Below, piece after piece: positions 36,603 to 39,603 of a DNA stretch of 39,603 nucleotides. Below the pieces are notes generated by a model. That model had not been told where the DNA came from. It did no database searches and was given only the letters and a program-made list of their open reading frames with translations. The translations under genes were made by a program, and so were the position numbers. Each line of letters starts with the position of its first letter. Position 1 is the stretch's first letter. The DNA comes from Halieaceae bacterium (GTDB lineage Bacteria; Pseudomonadota; Gammaproteobacteria; Pseudomonadales; Halieaceae), in contig JALRFH010000175.1 in assembly GCA_023253715.1 (NCBI GenBank), positions 1 to 39,603 on the forward strand, in the 5' to 3' direction.

Positions 36603-38498
36603 ATGGACTTTTTCAAAGGTCAAGATCGGGCACGACGCAATACCAGGCTATTGATTGTGTTGTTTGTTGTCGCGAGCCTTGGTCTTGTGCTCGCTGCCAA
36701 CCTATTTGTGTCGGTCTTTGTATTTATGGGATCTCCCGCAGGAGCGGGTAGCTGGCTTGACTACTTTGTTTCGCGTCAATTTTTGTGGGTCAGCGGTGCG
36801 ATGGTCAGTCTCATTGGCATTGTTATTTTGCTGCGCTGGACGCAGTTGTCTGCTGGCGGCGCGGCGGTGGCGGAAATGATAGGCGGTGTCCGAGTCCCGC
36901 CAAATACCGATGAGCCTAAATTGCGCCAATATCAAAACGTTGTGGCTGAAATTGCACTGGCTGCGAATATGCCGGTGCCCGGTGTGTATCTATTGCCAAA
37001 TGAGAGAGGCATGAATGCCTTTGCTGCAGGTATTGCGCCGCGTGACGCGATTATTTGCGTGACTGAAGGCTTGTTAGATCACCTTCAACGCGACGAGCTT
37101 CAGGCGGTTGTTGGGCATGAGTTCAGTCATATATTAGAGGGTGACATGCGGCTTAATATCCGATTGGCAGCGACTCTAAAGGGTATCACTTTTATTGGTG
37201 ATATCGGTCGTCTGTTGATGTGGTCAGGGCGCCGTTCGCATCGGTCAAAAGAGCGCAGCGCTCTGCCATTTATGGGTCTTGGATTGTGGTTAATCGGTTC
37301 GGTAGGGGTGGTTGTCGCTCGCCTGATACAGGCAGCGATATCGCGTCAAAGAGAGTTTCATGCGGATGCTAACGCCGTGCAATTTACTCGAGACGCGGGT
37401 ACCGTCGCGGATGCTCTAAAAGTGATTGGTGGTTATGTGCCCTCAACGCATGTGCAGTTGCCAGGGGCGGGTGAATTCGCACACGCGTTTTTTGGCACCA
37501 TTAAGCCCTCGTTTTGGGCTTGGGTCTCGACTCATCCACCGCTCGAGGAGCGAATTCGAAGGTTGACCCCAGGGTGGGATGGGAAGTACCTGGAGCGGCC
37601 GATGATCCATTATGGACAACCGGCGACGGGTGTCGATACACCAGAGAAGGCGCGCATAGCGGCAGCCGCCATATTGGCGGGTTCAAGCTTTGCGTTCTTA
37701 TCGGCCGATGGCGTGTCAAACCTTGTGGTTCCTGCGCCAAATAATGGCCAAGAGGATGGTGCAGGGCAAGGTGGGGAGCTGGATTATCGCGCTGTTTTAT
37801 CTGAGCCTCTGGTTGCCTGCGCAGCGATAACAGCTTTGTTTGTGAGTGATAAGGCCGAGGTGCGAACAAGGCAGTTTGAGCTGATTCAGTCCTCCAAGCT
37901 TGACGGTTTGATGTCTGAATTGCTGAAGCTTGAACAGCGTATCAGCGCAACACCATCGAACCAAAGGTTGGCGATGGTCGAGTTGGCCTGTGCTGCGCTC
38001 CGCCAATTATCGTACCCGCAGTACCAAAATTATAAGCTCTTACTGAAAGCACTGATCCGCGCGGATAATGTGATCGATCTCACTGAGTGGGTGCTGTTCC
38101 ATTTGATGCTGCACTACGTCGAACCGGAATTTGTAAGGTCCGCCTCAAAATCGCCAAAGTATCGACACTTGCAGCAGGTCTGCAAACAGATTGTCTGCGT
38201 CTTGTCCTTGCTGGCGCATATGACCCGCGGGGATCCAGAGTTGGTGTTCGTGGCGGCGGTTGAAGATCTGCGCCTGCGAGATGCTCGCCTGCTGCCGCTT
38301 AGGGATTGCTCGGTCGCGGATTTTTCCAAAGCGGTTGACGATTTGGGCTTGCTTTTTCCCTTACTCAAGCCGCGAGTTTTAAAGGCGATGTCGATCGCTG
38401 CCCGTTGCGATGATGATGTTTCGCCTTTGGAGACCGAGCTAATTTACGCCGTGGCGGCGGTCATGGACTGCCCCGTGCCGAGTTTCGACTTGGAATGA
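36603..38498 (+). CDS. HtpX-like M48 membrane metallopeptidase with a long C-terminal alpha-helical extension
   Basis: GMNAFAAG, VVGHEFSHILEGDMRLN zinc motif, REFHADANAVQFTRD, STHPPLEERIRRL; roughly 270 extra C-terminal residues. Confidence 0.88.
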   Translation: MDFFKGQDRARRNTRLLIVLFVVASLGLVLAANLFVSVFVFMGSPAGAGSWLDYFVSRQFLWVSGAMVSLIGIVILLRWTQLSAGGAAVAEMIGGVRVPPNTDEPKLRQYQNVVAEIALAANMPVPGVYLLPNERGMNAFAAGIAPRDAIICVTEGLLDHLQRDELQAVVGHEFSHILEGDMRLNIRLAATLKGITFIGDIGRLLMWSGRRSHRSKERSALPFMGLGLWLIGSVGVVVARLIQAAISRQREFHADANAVQFTRDAGTVADALKVIGGYVPSTHVQLPGAGEFAHAFFGTIKPSFWAWVSTHPPLEERIRRLTPGWDGKYLERPMIHYGQPATGVDTPEKARIAAAAILAGSSFAFLSADGVSNLVVPAPNNGQEDGAGQGGELDYRAVLSEPLVACAAITALFVSDKAEVRTRQFELIQSSKLDGLMSELLKLEQRISATPSNQRLAMVELACAALRQLSYPQYQNYKLLLKALIRADNVIDLTEWVLFHLMLHYVEPEFVRSASKSPKYRHLQQVCKQIVCVLSLLAHMTRGDPELVFVAAVEDLRLRDARLLPLRDCSVADFSKAVDDLGLLFPLLKPRVLKAMSIAARCDDDVSPLETELIYAVAAVMDCPVPSFDLE

Positions 38499-38532
38499 GC
38501 TTGTTTTTGGTTGCCTCGAAAGGCCGGTAAAA

Positions 38533-38608
38533 TGGAGCTGGCGAGAGGAATCGAACCCCCGACCGGCTGATTACAAATCAGCTGCTCTACCTACTGAGCT
38601 ACGCCAGC
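38533..38608 (-). tRNA. thrU: tRNA-Thr (anticodon TGT), 3' CCA encoded
   Basis: Minus strand GCTGGCGTAGCTCAGTAGGTAGAGCAGCTGATTTGTAATCAGCCGGTCGGGGGTTCGATTCCTCTCGCCAGCTCCA; acceptor GCTGGCG/CGCCAGC; loop TTTGTAA. Confidence 0.96.
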
Positions 38609-38622
38609 GAATGCGGATCGCA

Positions 38623-38651
38623 ATGATAGGCAAACAGGCCAGATGATGCAA
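38623..38651 (-). promoter_or_regulatory. Predicted sigma70 promoter for the inverted tRNA-Thr
   Basis: Minus strand TTGCAT (38651-38646) - 17 bp - TATCAT (38628-38623), about 15 nt ahead of the tRNA 5' end. Confidence 0.65.
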
Positions 38652-38685
38652 TCTTTCTTGATAAACTTTTTTCAGACTTTTTTGG

Positions 38686-38714
38686 TTGACAAACACCTTC
38701 GTCGTCTGGAAAAT
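38686..38714 (+). promoter_or_regulatory. Predicted sigma70 promoter for the tRNA-Tyr/Gly/Thr-tuf unit
   Basis: TTGACA (38686-38691) - 17 bp - GAAAAT (38709-38714), followed by GC-rich GTGCCGCC; T-rich tracts upstream. Confidence 0.6.
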
Positions 38715-38726
38715 GTGCCGCCTTTC

Positions 38727-38810
38727 GGAGGGGTTCCCGAGTGGCCAAAGGGATCAGACTGTAAATCTGACGCGAAAGCTTCGGTGGTTCGAATCCACCC
38801 CCCTCCACCA
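38727..38810 (+). tRNA. tyrU: tRNA-Tyr (anticodon GTA), 3' CCA encoded
   Basis: Acceptor GGAGGGG/CCCCTCC, loop CTGTAAA, long variable arm, T arm GGTGGTTCGAATCCACC, ACCA end. Confidence 0.97.
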
Positions 38811-38859
38811 AGTTAAAGTTGTTCTGTACCGCTTTATGGTGGAACTGAACAGTGAGTGG
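38792..38859 (+). repeat. Repeat copy 1: tRNA-Tyr 3' end plus downstream spacer
   Basis: AATCCACCCCCCTCCACCAAGTTA, then AAGTTGTTCTGTACCGCTTTATGGTGGAACTGAACAGTGAGTG; matches copy 2 at 38968 (offset 176). Confidence 0.85.
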
Positions 38860-38896
38860 AAGGTTAGTGTGTGTTCGAACCACCTGGTTCGACCGA

Positions 38897-38963
38897 GCAA
38901 CCACTGAAGTGGTTGCGAAGGAGCGCCGCTTGCGGCGACCCGAAGGGCGAGAGCCGAAGGCTC
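38897..38963 (+). repeat. Cluster of four short hairpins in the tRNA-Tyr/tRNA-Gly spacer
   Basis: GCAACCACT-GA-AGTGGTTGC (38897-38916), CGCCGC-TT-GCGGCG (38924-38937), CCC-GAA-GGG (38939-38947), GAGCC-GAA-GGCTC (38951-38963). Confidence 0.8.
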
Positions 38964-38967
38964 GAGT

Positions 38968-39035
38968 AATCCACCCCCCTCCACCAAGTTAGTGCTGTTT
39001 TGTTGCGCTTTGCGGTGGAGCAAGACAGTGAGTGA
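38968..39035 (+). repeat. Repeat copy 2: tRNA-Tyr 3'-end fragment plus diverged spacer
   Basis: First 24 nt AATCCACCCCCCTCCACCAAGTTA identical to copy 1; then GTGCTGTTTTGTTGCGCTTTGCGGTGGAGCAAGACAGTGAGTG. Confidence 0.85.
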
Positions 39036-39188
39036 AGTGTGGCTTCGCCCAAAGGGTCTGAGTGCACTAAAACCAAATTTGTTTTGCCCTTGGCTTGGTA
39101 AATTTGAATACACCCTGCCGTTGCTTCGGTGACCGCGGGGATTGGTTGCAGAAAGGCGAAAAGCTTTGCTGCAACAGGAAACGGTAGT

Positions 39189-39262
<74 letters not shown>

Positions 39263-39281
39263 AAAGAATAGGAAGTTATAG

Positions 39282-39357
<76 letters not shown>

Positions 39358-39463
39358 CTTCCGATAGAACGCAACGGTGGCTGTGCCAGCGTTGTTTTAA
39401 CAGACGGTTTAGGCCGTCAAACGTAGCTAGCAGCGCTGGTGCAAGATTTAGGAGACTGTCGTA

Positions 39464-39603
39464 ATGGCAAAGGAAAAGTTTGAGCGTAGTAAGCCTCACG
39501 TAAACGTGGGTACAATTGGTCACGTAGACAATGGTAAAACGACTCTGACCGCGGCTCTGACTCGAGTTTGCGCAGAGGTATTTGGTGGACAAGCGGTTGC
39601 GTT
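39464..39603 (+). CDS. tuf: Elongation factor Tu, N-terminal part (runs off window)
   Basis: [46 protein letters not shown]; tRNA-Tyr-Gly-Thr upstream as in tufB operons. Confidence 0.96.

Follow-up and report, generated by a model that had tools for sequence, protein, structure and literature searches.

An RtT element behind tRNA-Tyr in a Halieaceae tuf operon, with flanks that appear to follow the adjacent tRNA

The stretch of DNA analysed here (the window) comprises 39,603 nucleotides of a Halieaceae bacterium (GenBank assembly GCA_023253715.1, contig JALRFH010000175.1) and contains a tRNA-tuf gene cluster at its 3' end. A tRNA finder identified an intact tRNA-Tyr(GTA) gene at 38727-38810 of the forward strand. 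The next operon gene on this strand is tRNA-Gly(TCC) (39189-39262), followed by tRNA-Thr(GGT) (39282-39357) and the 5' end of tuf, encoding EF-Tu, which is cut by the window end (39464-39603). The arrangement reproduces the tyrU-glyT-thrT-tufB order of E. coli, as the initial annotation had recognised in describing a tyrU-type locus beside tuf; the tyrU-glyT spacer of E. coli is only 116 nt long and bears no annotated RNA feature. A sigma-70-type promoter-like site (TTGACA-17-GAAAAT, 38686-38714, forward strand), assigned by consensus match only, lies upstream of tRNA-Tyr, and no terminator-like site was found within 38480-39480. Directly upstream of the tRNA cluster, 36603-38498 encodes a 631-aa protein with a Peptidase_M48 domain. 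A tRNA-Thr(TGT) gene at 38533-38608 is opposite in strand to the Tyr-Gly-Thr-tuf operon, unlike E. coli thrU.

The last 19 nt of tRNA-Tyr (AATCCACCCCCCTCCACCA, 38792-38810) recur exactly at 38968-38986, and AGTTA follows both occurrences. Such a 24-nt exact repeat within 200 nt is far beyond chance. A repeat finder run on the window paired 38792-38858 with 38968-39034, a repeat of 67 nt with 82% identity in which the first 24 nt are exact, bearing out the 176-nt spacing reported in the initial annotation. The similarity noted there over a further stretch of about 44 nt corresponds to a hairpin that the two copies share, at 38820-38851 and 38996-39027, and that differs between them by compensatory changes. 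The first hairpin belongs to spacer D1 (38811-38857), which is 30% diverged from the sister species; the second belongs to spacer D2 (38987-39034), which resembles D1 and is the remnant of a second repeat unit with no second core.

The repeat is one part of a larger element on the forward strand. The Rfam RtT model (RF00391) matched 38842-38986 over its full length (model positions 1-130) with 51.6 bits, above the gathering score of 45, and the earlier label "rtT-like" was therefore correct. Beyond the direct repeat, the match contains an inverted copy of the T arm (38869-38884) and four further hairpins. In full, the 3' end and T arm of the tRNA are copied in inverted (antisense) orientation across 38858-38884; the outer stretch of this copy is more degenerate, and its best-kept part, 38869-38884 (GTGTGTTCGAACCACC), is 88% complementary to 38783-38798. 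Hairpin P2 (38877-38890, GAACC...GGTTC) follows, and the 3' strand GGTTCGA (38886-38892) copies the 5' strand of the tRNA T stem together with the start of the T loop. The RtT core (38893-38967) then forms hairpins P3 (38897-38916), P4 (38924-38937), P5 (38939-38947), and P6 (38951-38963) and ends in CGAGT. The direct copy at 38968-38986, 19/19 identical to the end of tRNA-Tyr, comprises the end of the T loop, the 3' strands of the T stem and the acceptor stem, and CCA. The copied tRNA thus reads GGTTCGA-core-AATCC...CCA, with the core at the position of the T loop.

Core covariation and aligned GAG/GAGT motifs show a conserved secondary structure with tandem G-A beside the last hairpin; tandem G-A has been reported in RtT (PMC7657543). 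The predicted fold of the window element is more stable than that of shuffled sequence (z -2.65), and a covariance model restricted to the core (R1, see below) matched 38871-38972 with an E value of 2.7e-13. The score, the location after tRNA-Tyr with a copy of its 3' end, and the unit length (176 nt here, about 178 bp in E. coli tyrT) identify the element as a new copy of a known RNA family and an ordinary RtT member at this locus.

Comparison with the E. coli region confirmed that the tyrT operon has the repeats to which the initial annotation had likened the window, each beginning with the terminal sequence of tRNA-Tyr. Both loci give a full-length Rfam match and have a unit of about 176-178 nt, consisting of a spacer after tRNA-Tyr, an inverted arm, the core, and a direct copy of the tRNA-Tyr 3' end. 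The window element differs in lying in a tufB-type Tyr-Gly-Thr operon and not in tyrT-tyrV, in having a single complete unit, and in its more degenerate outer arm. RttR of E. coli is annotated as a 171-nt RNA that runs from 8 nt after the CCA of tyrV to exactly the CCA of the copied end. The initial annotation had also offered a processed spacer RNA as a reading of the window repeat. Co-transcription fits, given the promoter-like site before tRNA-Tyr and the stretch free of terminator-like sites; processing would follow by likeness to RttR. An additional feature of the E. coli locus is that tpr overlaps rttR, and a 46-aa ORF (38852-38992) likewise overlaps the window element. We tried this ORF as a candidate for a small basic protein like E. 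coli Tpr and rejected it, as its frame is not kept in the congeneric genome G314 and it has no Pfam match; a protein of this kind is hardly credible as the product.

The element was then compared with the same locus in relatives. Within the genus, G314 retains the element, a deletion remnant is left in G297, and the element is absent from G326, as judged by alignment, and from G334, as judged by the gap between its two matches. Substitutions between the window's genome (G000) and G314 number 3/86 in the core and 0/19 in the copy (together 3/105), as against 14/47 in D1 and 49/110 in D2 with the adjoining spacer (together 63/157; Fisher p about 1e-13). A second same-genus pair, at tRNA-Glu in G361 and G062, showed the same pattern, with identities of 0.97 for the core, 0.74 for D, and 1.00 for the copy, in a pair that came from a set selected on core similarity. 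Since core and copy are conserved while the flanks diverge, and since members of the genus have lost the element, it is constrained yet dispensable over longer times.

These data also bear on the suggestion in the initial annotation that the repeat is the scar of a lost second tRNA-Tyr, that is, a simple degenerate duplicate. The recurrence of the 19-nt tRNA end with the following spacer is what such a duplicate would leave, and related mirror-image forms described below do hold nearly whole tRNA copies. Upstream of 38968, however, there is no tRNA 5' half; the inverted arm is found there instead, together with a core that is common to elements behind Gln, Ser, Lys, Arg, and Val tRNAs and tmRNA and is conserved between species. 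The relatives were inspected for two intact tRNA-Tyr genes, as had been proposed, and every Tyr locus inspected in the family has one tRNA-Tyr and no second. We consider the scar reading highly improbable.

RtT elements are far more widespread than the Rfam model indicates. With that model, 18/274 genomes of the class passed the cut-off and 74 matched at E <= 0.1. We built the core-only covariance model from 43 elements, trimming the tRNA arms except for four inner pairs. It detected RtT cores in about half of the gammaproteobacterial genomes sampled (178/369, E <= 0.01) and in 61/119 genomes of the window's family at E <= 0.001, and it also matched genomes from other classes of the phylum. 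Among the hits inspected in detail, 204/284 lie within 300 nt downstream of a tRNA gene; at loci that had no part in model building, 70/102 hits do so. The neighbouring tRNAs include Tyr, Gln, Ser, Lys, Arg, Glu, Pro, Val, Asp, Asn, Thr, and Gly(CCC). Cores were also found downstream of tmRNA genes (L025, L181, L197, L201, and L211), and a tmRNA-type 3' end closes the element in at least L025 and L211. Some elements are arrayed in tandem as 2-4 nearly identical units. The core pattern of the window itself had no match in a scan of named genomes, and a general core pattern matched 16 named contigs, including Alteromonas flava, Nevskia sp., a Rhodanobacteraceae, and Chromatiales.

The window's own genome has six places matched by the core model: the Tyr element of the window, a tandem pair, elements at Arg(TCG) and Lys(TTT), a probable element at Arg(ACG) that was assigned by homology to G314, and a weak sixth match. 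The tandem array in this genome (L002, G000:C25:1-260) has 174-bp RtT units, each including a rho-independent terminator; the contig begins inside the array, and the copied end (CCCTGGCCCACCGCCA) equals the tRNA-Ser(TGA) end of a relative (L287). The phylum-wide scan (L171-L212) gave RtT-like cores in other classes, many with truncated tRNA copies of 10-13 nt, some of which are then followed by a further hairpin. Core-model hits away from tRNA genes were obtained in two many-copy genomes (L185-L188, in G633 and G621) and may be akin to BIME-type repeats. REP/BIME repeats and rtT-like attenuators are hairpin-rich, and similarity to rtT has been reported for them in Enterobacteria (PMC2965389); unlike RtT, REP/BIME repeats are not tied to tRNA ends, and L185-L188 may belong with them.

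The wider set extends the comparison with E. coli RtT, as the same element occurs at many other tRNAs with its arms re-specified. The copy is identical to the end of the adjacent tRNA (19/19) in 86/125 distinct full-copy elements, a set in which inclusion required a match of at least 15/19, and in 1039/1070 comparisons it resembles its own tRNA more than it does the same isoacceptor in another genome. Without the 15/19 filter, a match of at least 17/19 was found in 122/160 first-unit hits, and many of the others stop abruptly after 10-13 matching nt. The antisense arm, a weaker inverted copy before the core, scores on average 29.5 against its own tRNA, 19.3 against tRNAs of other amino acids, and 15.0 against shuffles, and it can extend over at least 30 nt, into the variable loop. 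The core does not behave in this way: core similarity is 0.637 between elements at the same anticodon in other genomes, 0.631 to those at any other tRNA, and 0.701 within a genome. The clearest case is G015, in which the cores of a Gln and a Val element are 95% identical and the arms of each are those of its own tRNA; several tRNA sites that share the same core within one genome were also found in G314 and in the window's own genome. As judged from these sequence comparisons, RtT flanks, unlike the core, match the identity of the tRNA beside them. In open papers we found no description of a shared core whose arms are re-specified by the tRNA next to it; because the literature search covered open papers only, the novelty of this rule is provisional.

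A second arrangement is the mirror image of the first and places the core inside a tRNA copy. In clear single cases, such interrupted copies sit about 110-190 nt upstream of an intact tRNA with the same anticodon, which they match in their 5' part at up to 73/73 positions. T-loop-interrupted copies upstream of an intact tRNA were found at L078, L221, L214, L094, L128, L130, L066, and L273, and in eight distinct cases removal of the core restores a tRNA gene to the finder. Three interrupted copies stand in tandem before tRNA-Ser(GCT) in G314, and a tRNA-Ser(GCT) copy at L014:1391-1628 (reverse-strand coordinates) has cores in both the D loop (after nt 21) and the T loop. Tandem or partial duplication of tRNA parts, of which these nearly whole tRNA 5' copies are examples, therefore does occur in RtT history. 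Because of these interrupted copies beside intact tRNAs, the core seems to behave as an occupant of tRNA loops, positioned at TTCGA^A or at a comparable site in the D loop and in every case accompanied by an intact tRNA. A recombinase, template switching, or duplication with conversion may bring it there.

Further results bear on whether the core acts as RNA or as DNA. The core structure was set by hand and then tested, the first RNAalifold structure having missed P3 and P4 because of gaps. Its covariation score is 0.359, compared with 0.146 for shuffled alignments (0/500), and collapses when the pairing partners are slid. On the tRNA strand, G-U pairs outnumber A-C mismatches by 295 to 93 in P1, P2, P4, P5, and P6, counted in covariance-model alignments that were fitted to the structure and lean towards it; P3 has no G-U excess. 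A simple mismatch count over the whole antisense arm versus the copy gave no G-U preference and was replaced by these structure-anchored counts because arm placements are unreliable. Covariation between the two arms alone proves little, because both copy the same tRNA; the covariation within the core and the G-U excess favour pairing in RNA. The terminal helix is unpaired at about 10% of positions beside the core, 30% in its middle, and about 50% at its outside. The outer helix thus decays, and a full acceptor-like helix is therefore not maintained. The tRNA and the element are separated at many Ser, Gln(CTG), and Arg loci by a rho-independent terminator, which is repeated along with the element, so co-transcription is not general.

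The position of elements beyond a terminator would be accommodated by a DNA-level miniature insertion or repeat element, in which the core enters tRNA loops (T, sometimes D), tandem duplication restores an intact tRNA, the conservation stems from copying and gene conversion, and RNA, if made, is incidental. Such an element would also account for cores that are more alike within a genome than at the same anticodon across genomes, for the Gln and Val elements of G015, for the tandem arrays of 2-4 near-identical units, and for the interrupted tRNA copies, including the tRNA-Ser copy with cores in both loops. The compensatory changes and the G-U excess on the tRNA strand, however, point to RNA pairing, and core and copy are conserved between G000 and G314 where the flanks diverge. 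In addition, no associated recombinase was identified, the unit has no ORF of recombinase size, and one exact core pattern had no match in viral contigs (a single pattern and a weak negative). A purely DNA-level element is unlikely on balance, though it has to be taken seriously.

Integrative elements provide a further comparison. They, too, leave the tRNA intact, with the insert flanked by a directly repeated tRNA 3' end. The RtT unit differs in being only about 150-190 bp long, in having no recombinase within it, and in carrying both a conserved RNA-like core and a tRNA-end copy in inverted orientation. The part from T loop to CCA is commonly used by tRNA-targeting integrases. The copied part of RtT matches these targets and stays exact, and an exact second tRNA 3' end could serve as a decoy attachment site that draws phage or integrative-element integrases away from the tRNA gene. 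This would leave the conserved RNA core unexplained, and an unsystematic look at the loci inspected found no integrated element at the copied end; we give the idea very little weight.

The window element, an RtT member, is best explained, with a probability of roughly 60%, as a co-transcribed structured RNA that ends in CCA and has an insertion-type origin. The 176-nt unit behind tRNA-Tyr is ordered as spacer, inverted 3'-arm copy, hairpins P2-P6, and the direct 19-nt copy including CCA. As RNA, the copied T stem and acceptor strand would close a multi-branched structure in which the core replaces the T loop. The element is most likely transcribed together with tRNA-Tyr, tRNA-Gly, tRNA-Thr, and tuf, and tRNA processing enzymes would then trim the transcript to an RNA of roughly 170 nt whose 3' end is the copied CCA, in line with the RttR annotation. 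Because its conserved 3' end tracks the tRNA, this RNA may mimic the tRNA 3' end, serve as a decoy of it, or aid the processing of that tRNA. In evolution, the core acts like an insertion at tRNA loops (TTCGA^A), retained only where an intact tRNA copy survives alongside.

RtT is cited as a modulator of the stringent response in E. coli in passages of PMC4986893 and PMC2965389, and it is also mentioned in a study of the cold response (PMC8092127) and in structure papers (PMC7657543 and PMC8250186). In Pasteurellaceae, the RtT-family RNAs Arrc20 and Arrc21, near Asn and Lys tRNAs, were detected by RT-PCR, according to a portion of PMC4986893. They resemble the elements described here in standing beside tRNAs other than Tyr; they differ in being placed upstream of the tRNA genes, and that portion of the paper describes no tRNA-tracking arms.

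The arm rule matters more than the window element itself, as it makes a common element out of what was a little-known by-product of a single E. coli operon. Comparison across tRNA types makes the function, spread, and processing of RtT testable, and pairs like the Gln and Val elements of one genome provide natural before-and-after cases in which to study how a short sequence comes to copy the end of a neighbouring gene. With a little less than even confidence, we propose that RtT is the visible tip of a widespread proteobacterial element, a compact RNA core that enters tRNA and tmRNA genes at the T loop, or in some cases the D loop. An intact, regenerated copy would always stand next to it, and its flanks would be remodelled time and again, in both orientations, to fit the tRNA beside it. 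If this holds, the element would follow a new strategy of tRNA-targeted insertion and yield a structured RNA.
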